The position numbers and the translations under genes were made by a program. Below, one piece after another: positions 943 through 62,607 of a DNA stretch of 64,000 bases (the stretch's first letter is position 1; each line of letters begins with the position of its first letter). Under the pieces are notes generated by a model, which ran no database searches, was not told the origin of the DNA, and saw only the letters and a list, made by a program, of their open reading frames with translations. Source of the DNA: Caballeronia concitans (GTDB taxonomy: Bacteria > Pseudomonadota > Gammaproteobacteria > Burkholderiales > Burkholderiaceae); NCBI RefSeq assembly GCF_001544615.1, contig NZ_FCNV02000002.1:62001-126000 (forward strand). Direction: 5' to 3'.

Positions 943-957
943 CATCACAGTGTGATA
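943..957. promoter_or_regulatory. Copy 1 of a four-copy dyad (TATCAC-N3-GTGATA family)
   Basis: CATCAC-AGT-GTGATA lies 28 bp upstream of the UspA start. It runs into TATATTGA, which could serve as a -10 element. The same 15-bp dyad recurs at 2008-2022, 11064-11078 and 11321-11335. Confidence 0.6.
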
Positions 958-985
958 TATTGAGAATCCCCGAGGCGGAGGCATC

Positions 986-1429
986 ATGGCCAGCTATCGT
1001 CGGATCCTGTTGTGTTACAACGCCACCGCCGAGGGGCGTTGCGCGCTTCGTCTCGGCGCTCAGCTCGCCCGCGAGCTTCACGCCCAAACACATCTTCTTG
1101 CCGTCCTCGACGACGCGGAGTGGACGCGAGGCCTCGAGGTCATTCCTGCCGTCCCCTTCGAACTCGAGCAGGAGACCGCGAAAGAGGTGCTGCGTGAAGG
1201 CGTGAGCAAGCTTGCGAATCTCGGCGTCGTCGCGCAGGGCCATCTGGCGATCGGCAATCCGATGATGCAGATTCCTTCGTTTGCGAAAGCGCTCGATATC
1301 GATCTCATCGTCGTCGGGCATCACCCGAGCGGTCTTCTCTACCGCTGGTGGACCGGTCAGGATGATGGCCGGTTGCTGGATCGCGTCTCCTGCAGCGTGC
1401 TCGTGGCGATGGAACCGCAAGAGCTATAA
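986..1429 (+). CDS. Universal stress protein, UspA family
   Basis: This is a 147-residue single Usp domain. The N-terminus YRRILLCYNATAEGRCALRLGAQLA is the usual first strand and helix, and the C-terminal half has the IDLIVVGHH strand and a closing SVLVAM strand. The classical G-x2-G-x9-G-S/T nucleotide loop is only partly kept (GHHPSGLLYRWWTGQDDGRLL), so ATP binding is uncertain. The ATG follows a GAGGCGGAGG-like ribosome-binding region. A DUF1840 gene starts 15 bp after its stop and looks co-transcribed. The dyad 28 bp upstream links it to the POX-GH15 operon and two other units, so stress or oxygen-related induction is an inference. Confidence 0.9.
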   Translation: MASYRRILLCYNATAEGRCALRLGAQLARELHAQTHLLAVLDDAEWTRGLEVIPAVPFELEQETAKEVLREGVSKLANLGVVAQGHLAIGNPMMQIPSFAKALDIDLIVVGHHPSGLLYRWWTGQDDGRLLDRVSCSVLVAMEPQEL

Positions 1430-1444
1430 GAAGGGAGCACGACC

Positions 1445-1765
1445 ATGCTAGTCAAATTTCATTCGAACGCCACGCCCGATGTCGTCATGCTGCGCGACCT
1501 CGCGGGCTATCTTCTGGGCATCATCGGCAAGCGTATTGGGTCTAGAGGCGTCATCCTGCATGACGAGGTAGGCACCGCCATTGATCGCCTGGAGACGGTC
1601 CTGAAGGAAGACGAGCGGATCGCCTACGAGCACGGTGCGGTCTATCATCCGCTGTCGCGTACGGCCGAGCCGAGCGGAATGGGGCTGCAGTCCCGCGCGC
1701 TTCCTTTCCTCGATATGTTGCGCGAAGCCAGGCGCAAGGACGCCGACATCATCTGGAGCGCGTAG
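1445..1765 (+). CDS. DUF1840 family protein
   Basis: 106 residues that begin MLVKFHSNATPDVVMLRDLAGYLL and continue with IGKRIGSRGVILHDEVGTAIDRLETVLK. This matches the layout of the small cytoplasmic DUF1840 family of beta-proteobacteria, whose function is unknown. A clear GGGAG sits just before the ATG. The 15-bp gap after the UspA gene suggests a two-gene transcript under the dyad at 943. Its stop is followed by the convergent small membrane protein gene at 1790. Confidence 0.8.
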   Translation: MLVKFHSNATPDVVMLRDLAGYLLGIIGKRIGSRGVILHDEVGTAIDRLETVLKEDERIAYEHGAVYHPLSRTAEPSGMGLQSRALPFLDMLREARRKDADIIWSA

Positions 1766-1789
1766 GAGCGCTAGTGCCGCGCGAGGCCG

Positions 1790-1975
1790 TTACAAGATGA
1801 TCGGCACGGCTTCGATCAGCGCAAGGCCGATCAGCGCGCCGAGCATCGCGCCGACCAGTCGCGGATGCCAGCGGTCGAGATGCAGCGTCGCGAACAGCGC
1901 TCCGACGAAGATAATCCCCAGCAGCGAAAAGACGACGATGAGATATCCGATTTCGAAATCGTTGTCGATCAACAT
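1790..1975 (-). CDS. Small two-helix membrane protein
   Basis: 61 residues with two hydrophobic segments, IGYLIVVFSLLGIIFVGALFA (about 9-29) and LVGAMLGALIGLALIEAVPIIL (about 40-61), joined by a short charged loop with His, Asp and Arg. I do not recognise a family. A GGGAGGTG sequence lies directly upstream of the ATG. A copy of the shared dyad is 32 bp upstream, followed by a TATATTGA sequence as for the UspA gene. This regulatory tie is the best argument that it is a real gene belonging to the same stress-like regulon. Confidence 0.7.
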   Translation of the reverse strand: MLIDNDFEIGYLIVVFSLLGIIFVGALFATLHLDRWHPRLVGAMLGALIGLALIEAVPIIL

Positions 1976-2007
1976 GGCACCTCCCGCTTCGACACTTCTT
2001 CAATATA

Positions 2008-2022
2008 TATCATGATGTGACA
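2008..2022. promoter_or_regulatory. Copy 2 of the four-copy dyad
   Basis: On the plus strand it reads TATCAT-GAT-GTGACA, with one mismatched arm base pair. On the minus strand it is followed at once by TATATTGA, the same arrangement as upstream of the UspA gene. It lies 32 bp before the small membrane protein start at 1975. Confidence 0.55.
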
Positions 2023-2086
2023 CATGCAAGCGATGACGCGAAAAGCGGTCCTCGCAGCGACGGATGTCGTTCCATCGACAATAAGT

Positions 2087-3862
2087 TCACCCGCCCCCTC
2101 GCTGCAATGTCCGCCCGCATAATCCAAGCGCCGTATTGACGACAGCAAGATGGCTGAGCGCCTGCGGGAAATTGCCGGCGAGTTCGCGGCGCTGTGCGTT
2201 GTATTGCTCCGAGAACAGGCCGACGTCATTGGCAGTAGCGAGCACGCGCTCGAATTGCTGCCGCGCGTCTTCGCTGCGTCCCTGAAGGTTGAGGCAGTCG
2301 GCCGTCCAGCATGAACACGCGAGGAAAGTGCCTTCGTTCGAATCGCCGGCATGCCGCTTGCGGCGTCGGATCAGCCCGTCCTCGCAGAGGTCGCGGCGAA
2401 TGCGCTCGATCGTCGAGGCCATGCGCGGATCATCGGCGGACAGGAATCCGACGAGCGGCATCAACAAGAGACTGGCATCGAACGCTTCGCTGCCGTAGTA
2501 CTGCGTGAAGCTGCCGAGCCCCGCGTTCCAGCCTTCGCGAAGCACTTCATCGCGGATATGCTCGCGCAGCGCGGCCATCCGTTCGACGAGCGGCGAAGGA
2601 CCGCCTTCGGCCGCGCGATGATTCAGGAAGCGGTCCAGCGCCACCCACAGCATCACGCGCGAATAGGTGTAGTGCCGCGGTTCGCCGCGCGATTCCCAGA
2701 TGCCCGCGCCGGGCAAACGCCACACCTTCTCGAGATGCTCCACGATGCGCGTTTCAATGAGGCCTTCGTGATCCGCGGGTGCGAGCCCGCCGCGCCGCGC
2801 GACGTCCAGACAGTCGATCACTTCGCCCAATACGTCGAGTTGATGCTGATGCGCCGCCGCATTGCCGACGCGCACGGGCTTCGCATATCGATGCCCCGGT
2901 AGCCAGTCCACGGTCCATTCGCGCAAATGACGCCCGCCGTCCACGCGATACATGATTCGGCTGTGTTCCGGCGCGGACGCGATGGTCCGCAACAGCCAGT
3001 CGCGCCATGCGCGCGCTTCTTCGTGGTACCCGGCGTTGAGCAGCGCGACCATCGCGAAACTCGTATCGCGCAGCCACGCATAGCGATAGTCCCAGTTGAG
3101 CCGTCCGCCGGGCGCTTCGGGGAGCGAAGTCGTCGGGGCGGCGACTATCGCGCCCGTGCGATGATGCATCAGCGCTTTCAGCGTCAGCAGCGAACGCCGC
3201 ACCGCCTGCGGCCACGCGGTCCGGTTGTCGTCGAACCGGGCGATCCAGTCGCGCCAGAAGCGTTGCGTGTCGCGCAGCGCGGGCAGCGCGTCGAGCGGTG
3301 CGGGAGGCGCTTCGTGCGCGCGCGCATAGCTCAGTGCGAAGCTGACGCATTCACCGGCCTTGACGATGAAACGCGCGTGCATCGCGCCGTTGCTCACGTC
3401 CATGCCGATGCCCGTTCGAAGCACCACGCGATCCGGTCCGATACACGCGTGCAATTCACCGCCGATGCGTTCGATCAACGGCTCGAGTTCGCCGTAGTTG
3501 AAGCGCAGCCGCAATTCCGAGCGCATATCGACGACGCCGCCCAAACCGGTCACGATGCGCACCAGCGAGCGGGGTCCGTCGCCGACGGGCATGAAGTCGG
3601 TCACGCGCACGGCGCCGCCATCGACTTCGAAGTCCGATTCGAGGACGAGCGTGTCCTCCTGATAACGGCGCGCCTGGCGCACGATGCGCCCGGCCGGTGC
3701 GATCGTCCAGCAGCCGTTATCGGACGTGCCGAGGAGCGCCGCGAAGCACGCGTCGTCGTCGAAGCGTGGCCAGCATAGCCAGTCGATGGAACCGTCGCGG
3801 CTGACGAGCGCAGCCGTGTTGCCGTCGCCAATGAGCGCATAGTCCTCGATGGGGCGGCTCAT
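2087..3862 (-). CDS. Glycoside hydrolase family 15 (glucoamylase/trehalase-like)
   Basis: 591 residues. The N-terminal domain begins IEDYALIGDGNTAALVSRDGS and carries WLCWPRFDDDACF, typical of bacterial GH15 proteins. The (alpha/alpha)6 barrel contains WDYRYAWLRD at 257-266 and a second acidic motif NEGTFLACSCW with Glu about 510, the expected general acid and base regions. No signal peptide is visible, so it should act in the cytoplasm on an alpha-linked glucoside; some relatives hydrolyse trehalose, but the substrate cannot be read here. It is the last gene of the seven-gene minus-strand operon, 5 bp after the SDR gene. A GH13 enzyme of the trehalose synthase type lies elsewhere in the window (41876). 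Confidence 0.88.
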   Translation of the reverse strand: MSRPIEDYALIGDGNTAALVSRDGSIDWLCWPRFDDDACFAALLGTSDNGCWTIAPAGRIVRQARRYQEDTLVLESDFEVDGGAVRVTDFMPVGDGPRSLVRIVTGLGGVVDMRSELRLRFNYGELEPLIERIGGELHACIGPDRVVLRTGIGMDVSNGAMHARFIVKAGECVSFALSYARAHEAPPAPLDALPALRDTQRFWRDWIARFDDNRTAWPQAVRRSLLTLKALMHHRTGAIVAAPTTSLPEAPGGRLNWDYRYAWLRDTSFAMVALLNAGYHEEARAWRDWLLRTIASAPEHSRIMYRVDGGRHLREWTVDWLPGHRYAKPVRVGNAAAHQHQLDVLGEVIDCLDVARRGGLAPADHEGLIETRIVEHLEKVWRLPGAGIWESRGEPRHYTYSRVMLWVALDRFLNHRAAEGGPSPLVERMAALREHIRDEVLREGWNAGLGSFTQYYGSEAFDASLLLMPLVGFLSADDPRMASTIERIRRDLCEDGLIRRRKRHAGDSNEGTFLACSCWTADCLNLQGRSEDARQQFERVLATANDVGLFSEQYNAQRRELAGNFPQALSHLAVVNTALGLCGRTLQRGGG

Positions 3863-3867
3863 TCCAC

Positions 3868-4869
3868 TCAGCTCCGCCGTTTGGCGGCAAGGCGCAGCAA
3901 GCCCACCGCGCCGATGCCCGCGAGTGCCCAGAAAACCGAGCGATGCCGGTCGGTGAACATCTCCCAGCTATGCTCTCGCGCTTCGTCGTCGAAGCGGCCG
4001 TGCGCGCCGAAGTCGCCGGGCACGGGATCGAACAGATTGCCGGCGGCATTGCGTTCGAGCGGCTCGTCGGTGAGCTGGCCTGCATAGCCTGCGCGCGCCA
4101 GATATCGGTCGATGAGCGCGGGCGCGATGCGATTCGCGAGAATCGCCTTCACGGTCGAGAAGCCGAGCCACACTTCGCGCCTGCGATGCGTCGCCGCGAA
4201 ATAGATCGCGCGCGCGGCCACTTCCGGCTGAAAGATCGGCGCGACGGGGCGGGCGCGCTTGCCGGTCTTGTTCATCGCCCAGTCGAATTGCGGCGTGTTC
4301 ATCGCGGGAAGTTCTACCACGGTCAGGTGAACGTTCAGCTTGTCGTGAATGATCTCGGATCGCAGTGAGTCCGTGAAGCCGCGAATGGCGAACTTCGCGC
4401 CGCAATACACCGATTGCAGCGGCACCGAGCGATACGCCAGCGCCGATCCGACATTGACGATGGTCCCGCGATTGCGCGTGCGCATGCGCGAGAGCGCCGA
4501 CATCATGCCGTGGACCTGACCGAGATACGTGACGCGCGTGCCGCGCTCGATTTCGTCGGCGGTGAGCGCGGAGACGGGCGCGAACGCGGTGGCCATCGCG
4601 ACATTGACCCAGACATCGATCGGGCCGAGCGTGTCTTCCACTTGCGAAGCCGCCGCCTCGACGGCGCGCGCATCGGCGACATCGGTGGGTATGGCAAGCG
4701 CGCGCACGCCGAAGCGCGCCTCGATCCGCGCGGCGGCTCGCGAAAGCCGTTCAGCATCGCGCGATAAAAGCGCGACGTCATAGCCGTGGCGGGCGAATTC
4801 ATCGGCAGCCGCGCGTCCGACACCCGCGCCCGCGCCGGTGATGACCGCGATTTTTCGTGTCTCGCTCAT
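3868..4869 (-). CDS. Short-chain dehydrogenase/reductase with C-terminal hydrophobic anchor
   Basis: 333 residues from the ATG at 4869. The upstream open frame is a shadow of the GMC gene and was trimmed. VITGAGAGVGRAAADEF (about 9-25) is the TGxxxGxG cofactor loop, and NVGSALAYRSVPLQSVYCGAKFA holds the catalytic Ser and YxxxK. The C-terminal half is longer than in classical SDRs and ends in FWALAGIGAVGLLRLAAKRRS, a possible membrane anchor. The start overlaps the GMC stop by four bases (ATGA), so translation should be coupled. Proteins of this type are often found beside GMC oxidoreductases; the substrate is unknown. Confidence 0.88.
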   Translation of the reverse strand: MSETRKIAVITGAGAGVGRAAADEFARHGYDVALLSRDAERLSRAAARIEARFGVRALAIPTDVADARAVEAAASQVEDTLGPIDVWVNVAMATAFAPVSALTADEIERGTRVTYLGQVHGMMSALSRMRTRNRGTIVNVGSALAYRSVPLQSVYCGAKFAIRGFTDSLRSEIIHDKLNVHLTVVELPAMNTPQFDWAMNKTGKRARPVAPIFQPEVAARAIYFAATHRRREVWLGFSTVKAILANRIAPALIDRYLARAGYAGQLTDEPLERNAAGNLFDPVPGDFGAHGRFDDEAREHSWEMFTDRHRSVFWALAGIGAVGLLRLAAKRRS

Positions 4870-6524
4870 CGGAGATCTCCACGCGCGGCGAGCGCCTCGA
4901 TGCGGTCGGCGGTGCGCAGCGCGATCGCCTGTATGGTCAGCGACGGATTCACACCGCCGACCGTCGGAAAGACGGAGCCGTCGCAAATCCACAAGTTGTC
5001 GATGTCCCAGCTTCGGCAATCGGCATTGACGACGCTCGTCGCGGGGTCGTCGCCCATGCGCGCGGTGCCGTTCAGGTGGCACGTGTCGTCGCTTTCGCGC
5101 CAGACGTCGCGCGCGCCGGCCGCTTCGAGCGCGAGGCTCATGAAGTCGAGCGAATGCGCGACGAGCCGCTTGTCGTTATCGCACAGGGAATACGTCACGC
5201 GCGCGACGGGCAGGCCGTACTGATCTTTCTCGTCGGCGAGCGTCACGCGGTTGCGCTCTTGCGGCATGGTCTCGCCCACGATCTTCAGCCCGGCTTGATG
5301 GTTGTACTTCCGCATCTCGTCGAGTAGCTGCTGCCCCCACAGACCTCGCCCGTTCTGCGTCGATGTCCACGCCACCGGCAGCGGTCCCTGGCTCATGTAG
5401 CAATAGCCGCCGAAGAAGTCCTTGCCCTTGTCCTCGTAATTCCAGTGCTCGGTCAGCGCAAGCGACGGCGGCCCCTTGTACCAGCGCACTTCTTCGTCCA
5501 TCGTGCCCCACGCGGCCTGATTGGTCTGCACCATCAGGTTCTTGCCGACGAGACCGGAGCGATTGGCGAGGCCATCGGGAAAACGGTCCGTCGCGGAGTT
5601 GAGCAACAGGCGCGGCGTTTCGATCGCGTATCCCGCGACCACGACATTGCGTGCGCGCTGAAACTGCCAGCGTCCTTCGCGGAAATATTCGACGCCGGTG
5701 GCGCGCCCGTCGTCGCCCATGACGATGCGGCCGACCATCGCGAGATCGCGGATCTCCGAGCCGGCGCGCACGGCGCGCGGTATCCACGTGACGAGCGCGC
5801 TTTGCTTCGCGTTGGTGGCGCAACCCGACACGCAAAAGCCGCGATACACGCACGGATGCGCCTCGCCGCGCGGTGCGGAGACCGTGGCGAGCGGCGTCGG
5901 CGCCCAGTCGATGCCGAGCGCTTCGCAGCCGCGCGCAAGCACGAGTGCCGCCGCGTTCAGCTCATGCGCGCGATACGGATAGCGCGGCCGCTTCGGTCCC
6001 CACGGATAGTTCACCGGCCCGGCGATCTTCAGCGCCTCTTCGACTTCGCCGTAATAGCGCCACATCTCGCGCCAGTCGATCGGCCAGTCCGCGCCGTAGC
6101 CGAGCAGCGTGCGCGACTTGAACCATTCCGGCCGGAAGCGCAGCGAGACCATCGCGAAGTGAACGGTGCTGCCGCCCACGGACTTGCCGCTGTTGTTGTT
6201 GCCGAGCTTGAGCGGATTGTCGCCGTCGCAGATGCGCTCGTCGGTCCAGAAGAGCTTGCCCTGATGCGTCTCGTCGGACGCGAACTCTTCGAGCGGACGC
6301 CACCACGCGCCGGCATCGAACGCAACGACCTTGAAGCCTTTCTCCGCGAGACGGCAGGCAAGCGTGCCGCCGCCCGCGCCCGTGCCGACGATCGCGAAGT
6401 CCACCGCTTCGTCCTGCGGATACTCGCGCATCGGAATCCATGCGCCGGGACGGAACACGTCGGGCGCGCGGCCGTTCTTGCCGCGCGGGACGTGCTGCGC
6501 GTCGTTGGGCGAATCAGCGGACAC
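4866..6524 (-). CDS. GMC-family oxidoreductase (gluconate dehydrogenase large-subunit type)
   Basis: 552 residues with a GTG start at 6524, chosen because AAGGAG lies eight bases upstream and the ATG alternatives cut into the protein. The FAD-binding strand is DFAIVGTGAGGGTLACRLAEKG near residue 43. A cysteine-bearing segment (YRGFCVSGCATNAKQ) and the C-terminal CHLNGTARMGDD, then DGSVFPTVGGVNPSLTIQA, fit the membrane-type alcohol and gluconate dehydrogenase branch. The His of HLNGTARMG is the expected active-site base. It overlaps the subunit-3 gene by 11 bp, so the two probably form one enzyme. No cytochrome subunit gene is visible, so the electron acceptor is open. Confidence 0.9.
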   Translation of the reverse strand: MSADSPNDAQHVPRGKNGRAPDVFRPGAWIPMREYPQDEAVDFAIVGTGAGGGTLACRLAEKGFKVVAFDAGAWWRPLEEFASDETHQGKLFWTDERICDGDNPLKLGNNNSGKSVGGSTVHFAMVSLRFRPEWFKSRTLLGYGADWPIDWREMWRYYGEVEEALKIAGPVNYPWGPKRPRYPYRAHELNAAALVLARGCEALGIDWAPTPLATVSAPRGEAHPCVYRGFCVSGCATNAKQSALVTWIPRAVRAGSEIRDLAMVGRIVMGDDGRATGVEYFREGRWQFQRARNVVVAGYAIETPRLLLNSATDRFPDGLANRSGLVGKNLMVQTNQAAWGTMDEEVRWYKGPPSLALTEHWNYEDKGKDFFGGYCYMSQGPLPVAWTSTQNGRGLWGQQLLDEMRKYNHQAGLKIVGETMPQERNRVTLADEKDQYGLPVARVTYSLCDNDKRLVAHSLDFMSLALEAAGARDVWRESDDTCHLNGTARMGDDPATSVVNADCRSWDIDNLWICDGSVFPTVGGVNPSLTIQAIALRTADRIEALAARGDLR

Positions 6525-7161
6525 GGCGATTCTCCTTCTGCGCGGCTTCCTCGTGGCCGGGTTTCGCTTCGGCCGCCTCCCACGGATCGCGCCTGTTCGC
6601 GACCATGCGCACGTAGCCACGCGGATTGGCCGGGCCGCCGAAGCCGATCTCGCTCCACACATGCGGATGCGCGTAGTACATCCCGCAGATGTCGTGCAGC
6701 ACGCGCTCCGCGAAGAAGAGCGCGGGCGGCATGCGTTTCCATTCGGCGTGGTCGAGCTTGCCTTGCTGCATGTCGATGAGAAGCGCATGACGCGCGTCAT
6801 CGTCGATGCTCGCGAACGGCAGTTCATGACGCGCACGGCTTTCCGCATCCAGCGCGCGAAGGCCGATGCGCCACGCATCGCGCATGGGCGGCAGACGCGC
6901 ATCGCGATAGCCGTCGCCGGTGTTCTTCGCGAGGCGCGCATCGACGAGCGCGGCGACGGGCACCGCTGGGCGCTGCCTGTCCTGCGGCACGATGCACGCG
7001 CACAGCGCGCAGAGCGCGCGCCATTCGACGGCATCGAGAAAGCGCGGGCCGTCGGGCGTCGCGAGCCGTTCGTCGATGACATGGCGCGTGACGTCGTCCC
7101 ATGAGGGCGTGTCGCGCTTGTTCATCACGTCATAGTCGGGATAGCGGGGCAGGTGCTTCAT
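6514..7161 (-). CDS. Gluconate 2-dehydrogenase subunit 3 family protein
   Basis: 215 residues from the ATG at 7161, whose first bases overlap the stop of the upstream membrane protein gene (ATGA). The body, for example LDAVEWRALCALCACIVPQDRQRPAVPVAALVDARL and the later HAEWKRMPPALFFAERVLHDICGMYYAHP, fits the small subunit that accompanies GMC-type dehydrogenases. No convincing Tat or Sec signal is visible at the chosen start, unlike the exported gluconate dehydrogenase small subunit. The complex may therefore be cytoplasmic or use a non-standard route. It is co-transcribed with the GMC partner. Confidence 0.82.
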   Translation of the reverse strand: MKHLPRYPDYDVMNKRDTPSWDDVTRHVIDERLATPDGPRFLDAVEWRALCALCACIVPQDRQRPAVPVAALVDARLAKNTGDGYRDARLPPMRDAWRIGLRALDAESRARHELPFASIDDDARHALLIDMQQGKLDHAEWKRMPPALFFAERVLHDICGMYYAHPHVWSEIGFGGPANPRGYVRMVANRRDPWEAAEAKPGHEEAAQKENRRVR

Positions 7162-8075
7162 TTCTTCTCGGTCTCCCGAAGACGCAGCGCCGCGAGTCCC
7201 GCGAGTGCGAGCGCCGAAAAACTCGGCGGTGCGGGCAGCGGCGGTCCGTTGAACAGATTCTGGCTCCAGTTGCGCCAGCCGCCGCGCGCGCGCGCGACGC
7301 CGCGTGCATGAAAGCCGACACCGATGAACCCGAGCGCCGTCGTCACGCGCAGCCATAGCCGCGTGAACCCGTGTTCGCGCGGACGGGCGAGGGCGGCATC
7401 GACGAGCAGCGCCGATGCGACCGGCGGAATGACGATCGGCGCGTACATGGCCGGGTTCTGGAACGCGCCGCGAAAATGCAGCAGCGCGACTTCACCGAGC
7501 GTGCCGAGCAGTCCGGCGCTCGTGACGAGCGCGAGCGCCTGTCCCGCCGGCATGCCGAAAAGACGCGGCTCGTGCGCGGGTTCGTCGCGCAGCCGTTCGG
7601 ATACCGCGCCGAGCGCGCCGGAGAGCAGCAAGGCCATCGGCGCGCCGATGGGCGCCGCATAGAAGAGGTTGTGCCAGCTCCATCCACCGGGGCGCTTCGT
7701 GATGTTGTACAGATGAAACCCCGTCCCGGCGACGCCCGCGAGCGCCGCGCCGACATATACCGCATCGCGCACCGGATGACGCGCGGGCTCGTGATCGGAG
7801 CCGCCGTGCAGGCCGGCGAACAGCGATAGCGTCGAGACGACGAGCGGCGTGTACATCGCGGGATTGTCGAAGGAGCCGCGATAGTGCTCCATTGCGCTGT
7901 CCGTCAGCACGGAAAGCGCGAGCAGCGCCGAGCTGCGATTGAACGTGCGCGCCGTATCGATATGCGTCTGCAGCGCCGGGCGATGCGCGTTGCGTCCGCC
8001 AAGACGCACGAGCGCGAGTCCCGCCGCAGCGATTCCGCAGCCGATGGCGATGTCGATGGTTCTGGTTTGCGTCAT
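7158..8075 (-). CDS. Multi-pass membrane protein built from two copies of one module
   Basis: 305 residues and strongly hydrophobic. The two halves match: EHYRGSFDNPAMYTPLV at about 63-79 mirrors LHFRGAFQNPAMYAPIV at about 199-215. GTGFHLYNITKRPGGW at about 117-132 mirrors GVGFHARGVARARGGW at about 252-267. The offset is about 135 residues in both cases, which shows an internal duplication. The conserved His, Arg and Asn residues at membrane edges could bind a quinone, heme or metal, but this is speculation. It sits between the enolase-superfamily gene (22 bp) and the dehydrogenase subunits (4-bp overlap). A membrane electron-transfer or anchoring role for the GMC enzyme is a reasonable guess. 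Confidence 0.75.
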   Translation of the reverse strand: MTQTRTIDIAIGCGIAAAGLALVRLGGRNAHRPALQTHIDTARTFNRSSALLALSVLTDSAMEHYRGSFDNPAMYTPLVVSTLSLFAGLHGGSDHEPARHPVRDAVYVGAALAGVAGTGFHLYNITKRPGGWSWHNLFYAAPIGAPMALLLSGALGAVSERLRDEPAHEPRLFGMPAGQALALVTSAGLLGTLGEVALLHFRGAFQNPAMYAPIVIPPVASALLVDAALARPREHGFTRLWLRVTTALGFIGVGFHARGVARARGGWRNWSQNLFNGPPLPAPPSFSALALAGLAALRLRETEKK

Positions 8076-8097
8076 GTCGTCCAATTTTCCGCGCGTC

Positions 8098-9204
8098 TCA
8101 GACCGCATACCGGTGGGCATCCGCATGTTTGAAATCCAGTCCGCAACCGGGCCGTGACCAGTCCGGCGAGATCGCGCCGTCGCGCGCATGCGGTGCGCCG
8201 TCGAAGAGCATCGACTCGATGCGGACGTGATCGTGAAACCATTCCTGATGCCGCAAACGCGGCGCGGCGCACGCCACATGCAGATGCAGCGCGGGCGCGC
8301 AGTGCGCGGACAGCGGCACATGAAACGCGTCGCACAGCGTGGCTGCGCGCAGAAAGCCCGTGATGCCGCCGCAGCGCGTGACATCGGCCTGGAGCACATC
8401 GACGGCCTGGTTCGCGAGCAGCGCGCGGAAGTCGTCGATCGTGAAGCCGTACTCGCCCGCCGCCAGTTCGATATGCGCGGGCAGCGCGTCGCGCAACGAT
8501 GCGAGGCCGGCGATATCGTCCGACGACACCGGCTCCTCGAACCACTCGGCACCGTATTGCGCGAACCGTTGCGCGTAAAAGAGCGCCCGCTTGCGATCGA
8601 GCGCGCCGTTGGCATCGACGAAAAGGCCGGCATCATGGCCAATAGCTTCGCGCGCGACGGCCACGCGATGCGGATCGCGCGACGGCTCCGTGCCGATCTT
8701 GATCTTGACCCAGCGGCATCCGTCTTCATGCACCCAGCTCGAGAGCTGGTCACGGATTTCGTCGTCGGTGTACGTGGTGAAGCCGCCACTGCCATAGAGC
8801 GGCACGCGGCTGCGCACGGCGCCGAGCAGACGCGCGAGAGGGATGTCGAGCAGCCGCGCCTTGACGTCCCACAACGCGCAATCCAGCGCCGATATCGCAC
8901 ACGCGGCGATGCCCGAGCGGCCGATGTTTCGCACGCGCTGCTGCATGCGCATCCAGAGCGCATCGATATTCCATGCGTCTTCATCGATGAGCGTCGGCGC
9001 GAGCGTCGATTCGATGAAACGCGCGGTGACTGCGTCGTTGTATGTATAGCCGATGCCCGTCTTGCCCGCCGCCGTGACTTCCGCGACGACGAGCGTGGTG
9101 GACGTCCAGGAGTAAGTGCCGTCGGCTTCGGGACGGTCGGTCGGGATGGTGTAGGCGCGTGCCCGAATGGCTTCGACCGGCGCTTCGCGTTTGGTCAGAT
9201 GCAT
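8098..9204 (-). CDS. Mandelate racemase/muconate lactonizing enzyme family protein
   Basis: 368 residues with the enolase-superfamily capping domain and barrel. The active-site set can be read: WVKIKIG gives the Lys-x-Lys pair (about 167/169), LFVDANG the first metal Asp (197), WFEEP the Glu (223), AAGEYG the third ligand (251) and SAHCAP the His (301). A KxK pair plus a His places it in the mandelate racemase subgroup, often acid-sugar dehydratases or racemases. The substrate is unknown. It follows the TPP-enzyme gene by 13 bp in the seven-gene operon, an unusual partner for a pyruvate-oxidase-like protein. Confidence 0.88.
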   Translation of the reverse strand: MHLTKREAPVEAIRARAYTIPTDRPEADGTYSWTSTTLVVAEVTAAGKTGIGYTYNDAVTARFIESTLAPTLIDEDAWNIDALWMRMQQRVRNIGRSGIAACAISALDCALWDVKARLLDIPLARLLGAVRSRVPLYGSGGFTTYTDDEIRDQLSSWVHEDGCRWVKIKIGTEPSRDPHRVAVAREAIGHDAGLFVDANGALDRKRALFYAQRFAQYGAEWFEEPVSSDDIAGLASLRDALPAHIELAAGEYGFTIDDFRALLANQAVDVLQADVTRCGGITGFLRAATLCDAFHVPLSAHCAPALHLHVACAAPRLRHQEWFHDHVRIESMLFDGAPHARDGAISPDWSRPGCGLDFKHADAHRYAV

Positions 9205-9217
9205 GGCGCGGCTTCGT

Positions 9218-11014
9218 TCATTTGTCTTTATGTACCGGCAATAATGCGCCGAGCACTTGCTTCGCGGTATCGACGATCACGTTGCCTTCGTTTGGATCGC
9301 CTTCGAACAGCGTCGTCGCGAACGCCTTCGCCTGTTGCAGCGTGATATGCGGCGGCAGCGGCGGCACGTTCGGATCGGCCTTCACCTCGATCACCACAGG
9401 GCGATCCGACGCCAGCGCTTCGCCCCACACGGCGGCCATGCGCTCGGCATCGTCGACATAGAAGCCGCGCAGTCCGATCATTTCCGCGAACCGGTGATAC
9501 GGCACCGACGGAATGTCCTGCGACGCTTCGAACTTGGGATCGCCGTTCATCACGCGCTGCTCCCACGTGACCTGATTCAGGTCTTCGTTATAGAGCACCA
9601 TGCAGATCCATCGCGGATCGGACCATTGTTTCCAGTACTTCGATACGGTGATGAGTTCGGCCATGTTGTTCATTTGCATGGCGCCATCGCCGACGAGCGC
9701 GATCACGGGCCGCTCGGGATGTGCGAACTTTGCCGCGATCGCATACGGCACCGCCGCGCCCATCGACGCAAGACCGCCCGACAAAGAGCACATCATGCCG
9801 CGCTTCACTTTGAGATCGCGTGCATACCAATTGGCGCATGATCCCGAATCACTGGTGACGATTGCGTTCGACGGCACGCGCGGCGACAGTTCCCATACCG
9901 TGCGTTGCGGATTCACGCCGGTCGTTCCCGATTCCAGCGCGCGTTTTTCGAGCTTCTTCCACCAGTCACCCATCCAGCCTTCGATGTCCTTGCGCCATGC
10001 GTGATCGGTCTTTTCCTCGAGCAGCGGAAGAAGCGCACGCAAGGTCTCGGCGCTATCGCCGACGAGATTCACTTCCATCGGATAACGGATGGACAACATG
10101 TCCGGCTTGATATCTATCTGCACGCCGCGCGCTTGTCCTTCCTTCGGCAGAAACTCGGAGTACGGAAAGGCCGAGCCGATCATCAATAGCGTGTCGCATT
10201 CGGTCATCAGCTTGTAGCTCGGCTCCGTGCCGAGCAGGCCGATCGATCCCGTCACGTATGGAAGATCGTCGGGCAACGCGGCCTTGCCGAGCAGCGCCTT
10301 CGCGACGCCCGCGCCCAACTTTTCGGCGACGGCGATGACTTCGTCAGTCGCCTGAAGCGCGCCCGCGCCGACGAGAACCGCGACCTTCTTGCCTGCGTTC
10401 AGCACATCGGCTGCGCGTTGCAAATCATCGGCGTAAGGCACGATCTTCGGCTCACGATAACCGACGCCCGAATGCAGCGTGCCATGCTTGCGCGGCGGCG
10501 GCTCGTACTCAAGCTCCTGCAAGTCGTTGGGAAACACGAGCGCCGTGACCTTGCGTTCGCCGATCGCCGTGCGCACCGCGCGATCGACCAGATGACGCAC
10601 CTGCGACGGCACGCTCGCCTGTTCCACGAAAGCGCCGGCGACGTCCTTGAACATCGACTGTAGATCGACTTCCTGCTGGTAATGCCCGCCGAGCGCCGCG
10701 CGCGCCTGTTGACCCGCGATGGCGAGCACGGGCATGTGATCGAGCCGTGCATCGTAGAGACCGGTGATGAGATGCGCGGCACCAGGGCCGGACGTCGCGA
10801 TGCACACGCCGAGTTCGCCGGTGAACTTCGCATGCGCGGACGCCATGAACGCGGCCATTTCCTCGTGCCGCGTCTGTATGAATTCGATCTTGCCCTTCGC
10901 GCGATTCAACGCGCCCAGGATGCCGTTGATGCCATCGCCGGGATAGCCGTAAATGCGGCGCACGCCCCAGGCGTGGAGACGGTCGACCAGAAAGTCGCCG
11001 ACAGTGGTAGACAT
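9218..11014 (-). CDS. Thiamine-pyrophosphate enzyme, pyruvate oxidase (PoxB) type
   Basis: 598 residues. The ATG at 11014 was chosen over an upstream in-frame start because GAGGAG precedes it. RHEEMAAFMA near residue 50 holds the cofactor-activating Glu. The central region has the Rossmann-like VGAGALQATDEV segment, and GDGAMQMNNMAELITVSKYW is the TPP/Mg motif GDG-x~27-NN in its PoxB form. The likely reaction is decarboxylation of a 2-oxo acid with electrons going to a flavin or quinone; pyruvate is the first candidate. I see no PoxB-like C-terminal lipid-binding extension that I can prove. It is the first gene of the operon, and a shared dyad lies 49 bp upstream of its start. Confidence 0.88.
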   Translation of the reverse strand: MSTTVGDFLVDRLHAWGVRRIYGYPGDGINGILGALNRAKGKIEFIQTRHEEMAAFMASAHAKFTGELGVCIATSGPGAAHLITGLYDARLDHMPVLAIAGQQARAALGGHYQQEVDLQSMFKDVAGAFVEQASVPSQVRHLVDRAVRTAIGERKVTALVFPNDLQELEYEPPPRKHGTLHSGVGYREPKIVPYADDLQRAADVLNAGKKVAVLVGAGALQATDEVIAVAEKLGAGVAKALLGKAALPDDLPYVTGSIGLLGTEPSYKLMTECDTLLMIGSAFPYSEFLPKEGQARGVQIDIKPDMLSIRYPMEVNLVGDSAETLRALLPLLEEKTDHAWRKDIEGWMGDWWKKLEKRALESGTTGVNPQRTVWELSPRVPSNAIVTSDSGSCANWYARDLKVKRGMMCSLSGGLASMGAAVPYAIAAKFAHPERPVIALVGDGAMQMNNMAELITVSKYWKQWSDPRWICMVLYNEDLNQVTWEQRVMNGDPKFEASQDIPSVPYHRFAEMIGLRGFYVDDAERMAAVWGEALASDRPVVIEVKADPNVPPLPPHITLQQAKAFATTLFEGDPNEGNVIVDTAKQVLGALLPVHKDK

Positions 11015-11063
11015 GGTTTGCTCCTCGAATGCTTCGACGAGAACTCCAGACAAGCTACGGATA

Positions 11064-11078
11064 TGTCACACCGTGACG
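11064..11078. promoter_or_regulatory. Copy 3 of the four-copy dyad
   Basis: TGTCAC-ACC-GTGACG lies 49 bp upstream of the TPP-enzyme start. On the minus strand it reads CGTCAC-GGT-GTGACA followed by TATCCG. It would control the whole seven-gene operon down to 2087. Confidence 0.6.
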
Positions 11079-11300
11079 CAACGCTCGTGCCGCGCCCACG
11101 CCCTTATTCGTTGCGAAAGCTCGGCGTGAGGAATGTCAGATGTCTGCAAGACACGGACGTCCTGATTTCGTTCAGATGCATGAAATTGGGCTTGTCCATA
11201 CGTCGTTCGCCTTTTCACTCGGGTGATTTCAACTCGCGCAGTCGTAATGCGCGAGCAAAGGAGCGATTCGCGTTTCGGTGCAACGTCCGCTTGGCAAGCT

Positions 11301-11316
11301 TTTCAAACGTTTGAAA
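11301..11316. promoter_or_regulatory. Perfect 16-bp palindrome
   Basis: TTTCAAACGTTTGAAA is its own reverse complement. It lies 4 bp before copy 4 of the dyad and 104 bp before the gene at 11421. The position suggests a second regulator at this promoter. It is followed by A residues on the plus strand, so it is not a plus-strand terminator. Confidence 0.4.
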
Positions 11317-11320
11317 AAAA

Positions 11321-11335
11321 TATCACGACGTGATA
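11321..11335. promoter_or_regulatory. Copy 4 of the four-copy dyad (perfect)
   Basis: TATCAC-GAC-GTGATA is the best example, with fully matching arms. It lies 85 bp before the gene at 11421 and is followed by CAAGTT. Confidence 0.65.
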
Positions 11336-11420: not shown

Positions 11421-11720
11421 GTGAAGAAGCCAAGCAACGGAAAACGCCCCAAACTGGTTTTCTTCCCGGCGCGAATGGTATCGCCGTCGCCCGGCGAGAC
11501 ACCGGACGACTTTCAAATCTATGCGTCGTATTACGGTTCGAGGGCGGCCGGGTTCTTCGGCAATCTGAAGGTCGTCAGGACCACGGACGGACGCATGTTA
11601 TTTCCGTACGACGGAGCGGAGAAGATCGGCCCCTTCTCGACTATCGACGAAGCGGTCACCGCAGCGCAGGCGCTCGGCGAGGGAATCGTTGCTGGCGACC
11701 TCCGGCATCCGGAGTTGTAG
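11421..11720 (+). CDS. Small conserved-type protein of unknown function
   Basis: 99 residues with a GTG start directly after GGAGGTTGTT, a strong ribosome-binding site. There is no signal peptide or membrane segment. The middle, YASYYGSRAAGFFGNLKVVRTTDGRMLFPYDG, looks like a compact beta-rich fold, and TIDEAVTAAQALGEGIVAGDL like a closing helix. It resembles short Burkholderia proteins annotated only as a DUF (possibly DUF6723, from memory). The perfect dyad and a second palindrome upstream place it in the same putative regulon as the UspA and TPP-enzyme genes. Confidence 0.7.
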   Translation: MKKPSNGKRPKLVFFPARMVSPSPGETPDDFQIYASYYGSRAAGFFGNLKVVRTTDGRMLFPYDGAEKIGPFSTIDEAVTAAQALGEGIVAGDLRHPEL

Positions 11721-60949: not shown

Positions 60950-62607
60950 ACGACGTCATCGCTGAAACCCGGAACTGGAACACGCGCGCACAGGAAAAGG
61001 CGCGGCGTCTGAAGCTGATCGAGCCGTGGCTGACCGGCTCCGTGCTCGATTCCGCGCGCATCGTCGATGCGTTGAGCGCGCTGATCGTCACCGGCGACCG
61101 CGTCGCGCTCGAAGGCAACAACCAGAAGCAGGCCGACTTCCTTTCGCGCGCGTTCGCGAAGCTCGATCCCGAGCGCGTGCACGACATCCATCTGCTCATC
61201 TCGAGCATCAGCCGGCCGGAGCATCTCGCGCTCTTCGAGCAAGGCATCGCGCACAAGGTCGATTTCGCGTACGCCGGGCCGCAGAGTCTGCGCGTCGCGC
61301 AACTGCTCGAAGACGGCAAGCTGGAGATCGGCGCGATCTATACGTACATCGAACTGTATGCGCGCATGTTCATCGATCTCACGCCGCAGGTCGCGCTGGT
61401 GTGCGCGGTGCAGGCGGACCGTCACGGCAATCTCTATACCGGCGCGAACACCGAGGACACGCCGACCATCGTCGAGGCCACCGCGTTCCGGCATGGCATC
61501 GTGGTCGCGCAGGTGAACGAGATCGTCGATGAGCTGCCGCGCGTCGATATTCCCGGCTCGTGGGTCGATGTCGTCGTGCAGTCGGATCGCCCGTTCGCGG
61601 TGGAGCCGCTTTTCACGCGCGATCCGCGTCACATCGGCGAATTGCAGATCCTGATGGCGATGATGACCATACGCGGCATCTACGACCGTTACGGCGTCAC
61701 GTCGCTCAATCACGGCATCGGCTTCGATACCGCCGCGATCGAGCTGCTCCTGCCGACGTACGGCGAATCGCTCGGACTGAAAGGCAAGATCTGCACGAAC
61801 TGGGCGCTCAATCCGCATCCGACGCTCATTCCAGCGATCGAGTCCGGCTGGGTGCAGAGCGTGCATTGCTTCGGCAGCGAAGTCGGCATGGAGGACTACA
61901 TCGCGGCGCGCTCCGACGTGTTCTTCACCGGACGCGACGGCAGCCTGCGCTCGAATCGCGTGTTCTGTCAGCTTGCGGGGCAATACGGCGTCGATCTCTT
62001 CATCGGCTCGACGCTGCAGATGGATGCCGACGCGAATTCGTCGACGGTCACGCTCGGGCGGCTCGCGGGCTTCGGCGGCGCGCCGAACATGGGACACGAT
62101 CCGCGCGGCCGACGCCATTCGAGCGAAGCGTGGCTGAAGCTGCTGAAAGACGACGGCCCGAATCCGAAGATCGCGCGCGGCCACAAACTCGTGGTGCAGA
62201 CCGCCGAGACGTACAAGAAGGGCGGCGAGCCGACCATTGTCGATGCGCTCGATGCCATCGCAGTCGGCGAGAAAAGCGGCATGCCGATCGCGCCCGTCAT
62301 GATCTACGGCGACGACGTCACGCACGTCGTGACCGAGGAGGGCATCGCGAATCTGCATGCGGCCGAAGGCGTCGATGAACGGCGCGCGGCGCTCGCGGCG
62401 GTCGCGGGCGTGACGCCCATCGGCATGCGCGCGAATCCTGCGAAGACGGAAGAGCTGAGACGGCGCGGCATCGTCGCGTATCCGGAAGACCTGGGCGTGC
62501 GGCGCGGCGAAGCGAAGCGCTCGCTGCTGGCGGCGCGCAGCATCGACGATCTCGTTTCGTGGTCGGGCGGGCTCTACGCGCCGCCCGCGCGCTTCAGAAG
62601 CTGGTGA
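60946..62607 (+). CDS. mdcA: Malonate decarboxylase alpha subunit (acetyl-S-ACP:malonate ACP transferase)
   Basis: 553 residues, the normal MdcA length. Diagnostic segments are RVALEGNNQKQADFLSRAFAKLDPERVHDIHLLISSISRPEHLALFE, YIELYARMFIDLTPQVALVCAVQADRHGNLYTGANTEDTPTIVEATAF, and GRLAGFGGAPNMGHDPRGRRHSSEAW. The subunit swaps the acetyl group on the prosthetic group of MdcC for malonyl. Its start overlaps the GntR stop by four bases, and mdcB follows within a few bases. The order mdcA-mdcB-mdcC-mdcD is that of biotin-independent systems. Confidence 0.96.
   Translation: MNDVIAETRNWNTRAQEKARRLKLIEPWLTGSVLDSARIVDALSALIVTGDRVALEGNNQKQADFLSRAFAKLDPERVHDIHLLISSISRPEHLALFEQGIAHKVDFAYAGPQSLRVAQLLEDGKLEIGAIYTYIELYARMFIDLTPQVALVCAVQADRHGNLYTGANTEDTPTIVEATAFRHGIVVAQVNEIVDELPRVDIPGSWVDVVVQSDRPFAVEPLFTRDPRHIGELQILMAMMTIRGIYDRYGVTSLNHGIGFDTAAIELLLPTYGESLGLKGKICTNWALNPHPTLIPAIESGWVQSVHCFGSEVGMEDYIAARSDVFFTGRDGSLRSNRVFCQLAGQYGVDLFIGSTLQMDADANSSTVTLGRLAGFGGAPNMGHDPRGRRHSSEAWLKLLKDDGPNPKIARGHKLVVQTAETYKKGGEPTIVDALDAIAVGEKSGMPIAPVMIYGDDVTHVVTEEGIANLHAAEGVDERRAALAAVAGVTPIGMRANPAKTEELRRRGIVAYPEDLGVRRGEAKRSLLAARSIDDLVSWSGGLYAPPARFRSW

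Follow-up and report, generated by a model that had tools for sequence, protein, structure and literature searches.

What reads a short dyad that recurs beside genes of several kinds in one part of a bacterial chromosome, and with what effect? The question is raised by a 64,000-nucleotide stretch of Caballeronia concitans (positions 62,001 to 126,000 of contig NZ_FCNV02000002.1, assembly GCF_001544615.1; hereafter the window), in which four copies of a 15-bp dyad close to TATCAC-N3-GTGATA lie at or near genes for a Usp-family protein, a two-helix membrane protein, a thiamine pyrophosphate (TPP)-requiring enzyme and a DUF6723 protein. We think it probable that the dyad is the operator of an autoregulated MarR-family winged-helix repressor and of its paralogues, the regulator being encoded in an operon (hpp-marR-clc) with genes for an HPP-family membrane protein and a ClC channel. 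The four 15-mers, found exactly where a preliminary description of the window had placed them, are listed here with their matches in the same genome to R1, a sequence profile built on 31 sites:

943..957, + strand: putative operator copy 1, CATCACAGTGTGATA, at the usp-DUF1840 promoter; R1 match with E 3.5e-4
2008..2022, − strand: putative operator copy 2, TATCATGATGTGACA, at the promoter of the two-helix membrane protein gene; R1 match with E 8.0e-4
11064..11078, − strand: putative operator copy 3, TGTCACACCGTGACG, at the TPP operon promoter; weak R1 match, E 1.07
11321..11335, + strand: putative operator copy 4, TATCACGACGTGATA, a perfect dyad that now faces the DUF6723 gene

All four had been described as copies of TATCAC-N3-GTGATA, which is strictly so for copy 4, while copies 1, 2 and 3 depart from it by one, two and three mismatches respectively. 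With no more than two mismatches this pattern has three matches in the window (three of the four copies), against a mean of 0.66 in shuffled sequence, and one shuffle in 100 contains as many. The form TRTCAC-N3-GTGAYA is matched in the window at zero or one mismatch by copies 1–4 only, and at up to two mismatches it has eight matches (shuffle mean 3.49; one of 100 shuffles with as many). Across the genome (6.17 Mb in 47 contigs) there are 13 places at up to one mismatch, versus three for a reversed-pattern control; four of them fall within 10.4 kb, for which random placement gives, by our own arithmetic, a chance of about 1e-8 in a region that was preselected for having them. Of the nine places outside this island, one (L003) is the promoter of hpp-marR-clc, five (L004, L005, L016, L020, and L023) lie within long reading frames, and the surroundings of L019, L021, and L022 are not clear-cut. 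We agree with the preliminary description that this is not a CRP or FNR box: the dyad has an odd length of 15 bp, its half-sites are reversed in direction, and it fits neither TGTGA-N6-TCACA nor TTGAT-N4-ATCAA. The latter, for which the comparison comes from a study of Burkholderia cenocepacia H111 (PMC9104464), has other letters and forms an even-length dyad, and no FNR-type box is present in the island at up to one mismatch.

Where might the regulator be encoded? A search of the whole genome with R1 (150 of 671 first-look candidates scored) gives eight matches with E of 10 or less at five places, namely the four island copies and a fifth at C14:427009, 94 bp upstream of an operon for an HPP-CBS membrane protein, a MarR_2 regulator and a ClC-CBS channel. 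The marR gene itself lies outside the window (G000:C14, 428297–428704), and its product has the MarR_2 winged-helix domain with E 2.1e-16 and 60.3 bits, against a cut-off of 27. The structure predicted for a homologue, the MarR of L043 (a monomer modelled from four sequences, with a mean predicted local distance difference test score of 85.1), has helices and a two-strand wing in winged-helix order, and a cysteine that is kept in 44 of 46 aligned MarR homologues falls inside the predicted helix 72–84 of this model. Because the hpp-marR-clc promoter carries a further copy of the dyad, the operon is probably autoregulated. A single kind of regulator encoded outside the window had been anticipated before this work, and the MarR of this operon is now the candidate for it. 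We note also that the same genome contains a marR paralogue with 58% identity at C14:50428.

The association of the dyad with marR extends well beyond this genome. A weight matrix trained on Usp and two-helix sites only gives a score of at least 15 at the promoter of hpp or marR for 29 of the 30 marR loci, our own included, with the remaining locus (L288) at 14.9, and for none of the 30 when reversed; by sequence evidence, a palindromic site thus stands at the promoter of marR itself. In a search of 61 genomes with R1 at E of 1 or less (using stricter filters, with part of the candidates scored), 39 genomes have matches, with a maximum of 27 in one genome, both strands counted. A match is present in 36 of the 38 genomes that have a close marR (E below 1e-40, a cut chosen by us) versus three of the 23 that do not (Fisher 5.7e-11, with relatedness ignored), and in the two misses, G003 and G016, the site is present on reading the stretch (L303, L304). 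Outside the genus, the corresponding numbers are four of four genomes versus two of 20 (P 0.0014, again ignoring relatedness). We also examined the genes beside sites scoring at least 18 in the window and in 40 stretches chosen around R1 matches, for which the gene calls come from a crude script and 'inside' and 'upstream' are approximate; the commonest families are HPP (10), the TPP enzyme (8), marR (6), the two-helix protein (6) and Usp (4), and the regulator among these five is marR, whose distance from the centre of the dyad is about 40 bp in L241, L251, L263, and L264. There are 14 sites with a score of at least 18 in 1.58 Mb of relatives' DNA and none in the reversed sequence.

The site is likewise found directly upstream of marR in four genomes from other families of the order (G067, G068, G074, and G080), and on plasmids. 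For example, a perfect 21-bp palindrome, ATATATCACAATGTGATATAT, starts 69 bp upstream of a Klebsiella pneumoniae plasmid marR with 62.5% identity, and is the only R1 place at E of 5 or less in 361 kb. On a 3.2-Mb replicon of B. cenocepacia, R1 at the same threshold with stricter filters finds the marR promoter only, and the matrix, applied over 40 kb, adds the hpp promoter. Among 16 plasmid-collection loci, hand-picked from 40 matches listed of 213 matching records, 11 have a site scoring at least 17 with marR (L309, L310, L312, L313, L314, L320, L323, L324, L325, L327, and L328; the L320 site is 820 bp away), and the reversed controls have none. The dyad is perfect or near-perfect in L310 and L312, where the marR homologue lies on conjugative Klebsiella plasmids and is divergent from a flavin reductase gene. 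The Rhodococcus plasmid homologue L326 (51% identity) has no dyad, and TATCGTATGACGATA occurs about 70 bp upstream of position 2501, with the same spacing and other inner letters.

The genes next to copies 1 and 2 in the window are the following:

986..1429, + strand: Usp-family gene (Pfam Usp, E 4.2e-16)
1445..1765, + strand: DUF1840 gene, downstream of usp (Pfam DUF1840, E 1.1e-23)
1790..1975, − strand: gene for a 61-residue membrane protein with two helices by reading, without Pfam or NCBIfam matches

To ask whether the copies are kept at orthologous promoters, the test that had been set beforehand, we scanned 350 bp upstream of relatives of the Usp, two-helix and DUF6723 genes for the dyad with up to two mismatches, leaving our own loci (L104, L134) and repeats (L137, L160) out of the counts. 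The dyad is upstream of Usp in 12 of 13 relatives' loci with 51–89% identity (L113 lacks it) and upstream of the two-helix gene in 25 of 28 loci with 64–86% identity (it is absent from L105, L136, and L156); the site in L117, where the two-helix gene precedes usp, is counted in both groups. The reversed pattern occurs in none of the rows of upstream stretches for the three genes. Conservation is thus seen for two of the four copies. The two-helix protein itself occurs in 53 of the 101 genomes searched, and in one genus only.

Alignment of 39 distinct Usp and two-helix sites, which include our own copies 1 and 2 and of which 31 are in the profile model (the remainder being repeats or near-repeats), is gap-free and gives TA-YRTCACAAYGTGAYA-TATAAT; we estimate the full operator to be about ATAYRTCAC-NNN-GTGAYRTAT. 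In the 27 sites of the two-helix group the dyad fills a 16-bp spacer: a TATAAT-like −10 begins immediately behind it, and a TTGAAT-like −35 has its end 16 bp ahead of that −10. The 12 sites of the Usp group have a less regular −10-like stretch and no clear −35. The proposal that the dyad occupies the −35/−10 spacer is borne out by the aligned two-helix promoters. It had also been noted that copies 1 and 2 are followed by the same TATATTGA; it is indeed present at both, with an offset of 2 bp between them relative to the dyad. Copy 2 reads TGTCACATCATGATA-TATATTGA toward the two-helix gene, and at copy 1 a possible −10, TATATT, begins two bases inside the right end of the dyad.

Copy 3 stands in a different kind of promoter, at the head of the TPP operon:

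2087..9204, − strand: remaining genes of the TPP operon, for an enolase-like protein, a membrane protein, a gluconate-2-dehydrogenase subunit-3-like protein, a glucose-methanol-choline (GMC) oxidoreductase, a short-chain dehydrogenase/reductase (SDR) and a glycoside hydrolase family 15 (GH15)/trehalase-like protein
9218..11014, − strand: first gene of the operon (tpp), for a TPP-requiring enzyme, a pyruvate-oxidase relative of the PRK08273 family (NCBIfam NF006129, 1118.5 bits against a cut-off of 724)
11078..11091, − strand: sigma-54-type −24/−12 element GGCACGAGCGTTGC, conserved upstream of tpp

The gene order downstream of tpp is kept in several relatives (L024, L029, L031, and L033, for example). 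Of 32 Burkholderiaceae loci, 30 have a GG-N10-GC element of sigma-54 type upstream of tpp (one of 32 in the reversed control), as do nine of 48 loci from other families (reversed, two of 48), with a pattern that was fixed only after some of the tpp loci had been seen; in the window alone the sigma-54 consensus is not above chance. The element is kept in Burkholderiaceae even at loci that lack the dyad. In the window it ends on the base with which copy 3 begins, and since the two share this base a bound protein would be expected to cover the −12 and start region. The same arrangement recurs in L024, L245, L246, L249, and L325, and copy 3 is, on sequence grounds, the putative operator of tpp by ancestry.

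The history of copy 4 is bound up with that of copy 3, and the features that bear on it are these:

11155..11223 (approximate), − strand: surviving 3′ portion of a decayed second marR gene (marR2), located between copies 3 and 4 and recognised by alignment with L245, L246, L249, and L024
11300..11317, + strand: palindrome A, a perfect 18-bp palindrome, TTTTCAAACGTTTGAAAA, 3 bp from copy 4
11421..11720, + strand: DUF6723 gene (Pfam DUF6723)

The preliminary description tied copy 4 to the gene at 11421, and this does not hold: none of the 27 usable loci of DUF6723 homologues (51–66% identity) has the dyad upstream, a 28th locus, L191, beginning at a contig end and thus lacking a usable upstream stretch. 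DUF6723 is probably a bystander of copy 4; many genomes of the genus encode several paralogues of it. Palindrome A occurs at a single place in its own genome at up to two mismatches (reversed control, none), and where the dyad is linked to tpp in relatives it is adjoined by a similar palindrome, with a form of about TTTTCAAANNTTTGAAAA. Among relatives that carry the TPP operon, some have this composite of dyad and A about 250–480 bp upstream of tpp, with DUF6723 not adjoining. In L245 marR2 is an open frame (57% identity), with the composite on one side and a second dyad, at tpp, on the other; a stop interrupts the frame in L246, insertions and deletions that compensate one another are seen in L249, and L024 and the window retain pieces only, with both flanking dyads kept throughout this stepwise decay. 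The annotated order in Caballeronia sp. Lep1P3 is coxB (divergent), marR, tpp and enolase. Because marR2 in the relatives separates the composite from tpp, and given the Lep1P3 gene order, copy 4 by ancestry is assigned to the region between coxB and marR2, and copies 3 and 4 are the predicted former flanks of a second marR gene that has been lost in this lineage. If so, this would be a clean case of operator take-over following loss of a local regulator.

Two other accounts of copy 4 were discarded. That it is an ancestral element of the DUF6723 gene is not supported by the 27 loci without a dyad or by the marR2 alignment. We also considered the composite as the upstream activating site of a sigma-54 enhancer-binding protein and dropped this, since marR2 is found between composite and tpp (L245, L246, L249, and L325) and the composite reads better as an ancestral coxB/marR2 promoter region; a role for copy 4 as an upstream site is retained as an alternative, discussed below.

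These arrangements suggest how the system may work. Bound to the dyad, a MarR dimer would occupy the −35/−10 spacer of sigma-70-type promoters at Usp, the two-helix gene and the marR operon, and at copy 3 it would mask the −12/start region of the sigma-54-type TPP promoter; the occupied dyad would in each case block RNA polymerase and so repress transcription. Autorepression of hpp-marR-clc would set the level of MarR, and a signal would lift repression, possibly through the conserved cysteine in the predicted helix 72–84. We infer the binding, the dimer, the sign of regulation, the signal and the assignment of paralogues to copies from the sites, their positions, conservation and co-occurrence, and the predicted fold.

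Several observations weigh against this assignment. The dyad is upstream of none of 19 Usp homologues and none of three two-helix homologues with less than 50% identity, and a dyad scoring at least 18 is within 500 bp of tpp in only five of 32 Burkholderiaceae loci (L024, L025, L026, L028, and L029), with weaker dyads near tpp in L031 and L033. No site reaching a score of 13 stands at the marR2-type paralogues of L307 (in our own genome), L031, and L033, which have only half-matching stretches; five of the 16 plasmid loci (L311, L319, L321, L322, and L326) lack a site of score 17; and the co-occurrence statistics take no account of relatedness. Moreover, regulators of other kinds are found in the site-rich clusters; in Caballeronia sp. 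SBC1 they are Rrf2, LysR, a response regulator and a sigma factor. These, together with the marR homologues that lack a site, lend something to an account in which the dyad belongs to some other regulator (a response regulator, LysR or Rrf2, for example) and the marR operon is one of its targets, as it could be. We judge this distinctly unlikely, as the gene common to dyad neighbourhoods on the Klebsiella plasmids, on the B. cenocepacia replicon and in G067, G068, G074, and G080 is marR, and genomes without a close marR seldom have an R1 match.

The sign of regulation could also be otherwise, with MarR binding the dyad as an activator or dual regulator and copy 4 acting as an upstream site for the sigma-54-type promoter. 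Sigma-54 promoters require an activator, and copy 4, about 230 bp upstream of the sigma-54-type element, has been kept after the loss of marR2; however, repression classically acts from positions that overlap core promoter elements, as copy 3 and the spacer sites do, and the two-helix group has a near-consensus −10, TATAAT, so that we regard activation as unlikely. The preliminary description had left the choice between a repressor and a MerR-like activator, and the core-promoter position suggests the former. A MerR-type site would also place the dyad within the spacer, but MerR-type promoters have spacers of 19–20 bp, the 27 aligned two-helix sites have 16 bp, and the co-occurring gene encodes a MarR_2 protein; such an activator is very improbable here. 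Finally, most of the 13 places in the genome lie outside the island, many of them in reading frames or in unclear surroundings, as would be the case were this a short palindrome repeated by chance; given the conservation at orthologous promoters and the complete absence of high-scoring sites from reversed relatives' DNA, we give that explanation next to no weight.

A MarR repressor acting at its own promoter has ample precedent. MarR, OhrR, HpaR and others are autoregulated MarR-family repressors with palindromic operators, and the pairing described here would be a further member, resembling them in its MarR_2 winged-helix protein and in a palindromic site that lies both at the regulator's promoter and at neighbouring genes. 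It differs from curated MarR families, for which the best NCBIfam score is 33 bits against a cut-off of 200 and no equivalog fits, and from solved MarR structures, the nearest chain by sequence having E 4.6e-7 and none being close. Neither the operator letters nor the marR-hpp-clc theme was found in the open-access literature, which omits most subscription papers. Among low-oxygen systems, the low-oxygen-activated (lxa) locus of B. cenocepacia (PMC6127331) has clustered Usp and stress genes, and is similar in that Usp and stress genes cluster in Burkholderiaceae, as in the SBC1 stretch described below. It differs in that the 3.2-Mb B. cenocepacia replicon, whose strain may or may not have lxa, has its R1 match at the marR promoter only; neither this one replicon nor the literature consulted supports a link with lxa.

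What, then, might the regulon do? The gene content around the sites hints at roles in respiration and in survival when oxygen is low or nitrogen oxides are present, low-oxygen control being an inference from that content. A Caballeronia sp. SBC1 plasmid provides an annotated stretch of 50 kb, about 60% of it marked as coding in an incomplete table, in which all 11 sites with a score of at least 18 lie outside annotated genes. The nearest genes reading away from them are ctaD, the two-helix gene (twice, once before usp), marR-clc, DUF1840 (twice), a high-potential iron-sulfur protein (HiPIP) gene, yaaH-acs and an sdhB-like gene; one further site has a response regulator gene at 450 bp and one has no gene within 600 bp. 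This dyad-rich stretch also carries Usp, hemerythrin and oxidase genes. A vague stress island thereby becomes a testable regulon, sequence alone matches an uncharacterised regulator, across a bacterial family, to the DNA site that it probably recognises, and the dyad serves as a tag with which clusters of respiration and survival genes are found in several genomes of the genus. A broader idea, which we regard as possible though doubtful, is that this cysteine-bearing MarR subfamily is a redox or nitrogen-oxide master switch for a dispersed low-oxygen survival regulon of the Burkholderiales, with paralogues spreading on plasmids and decaying, and their operators being taken over by the remaining copy; the regulon would then comprise Usp, alternative oxidases, hemerythrin, HiPIP, the TPP oxidase, and the HPP and ClC channels, and the cysteine would lie in the predicted recognition helix. 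In other loci the site is upstream of a molybdopterin oxidoreductase gene (L247, L270) and, once, of a flavohaemoglobin gene (L234).

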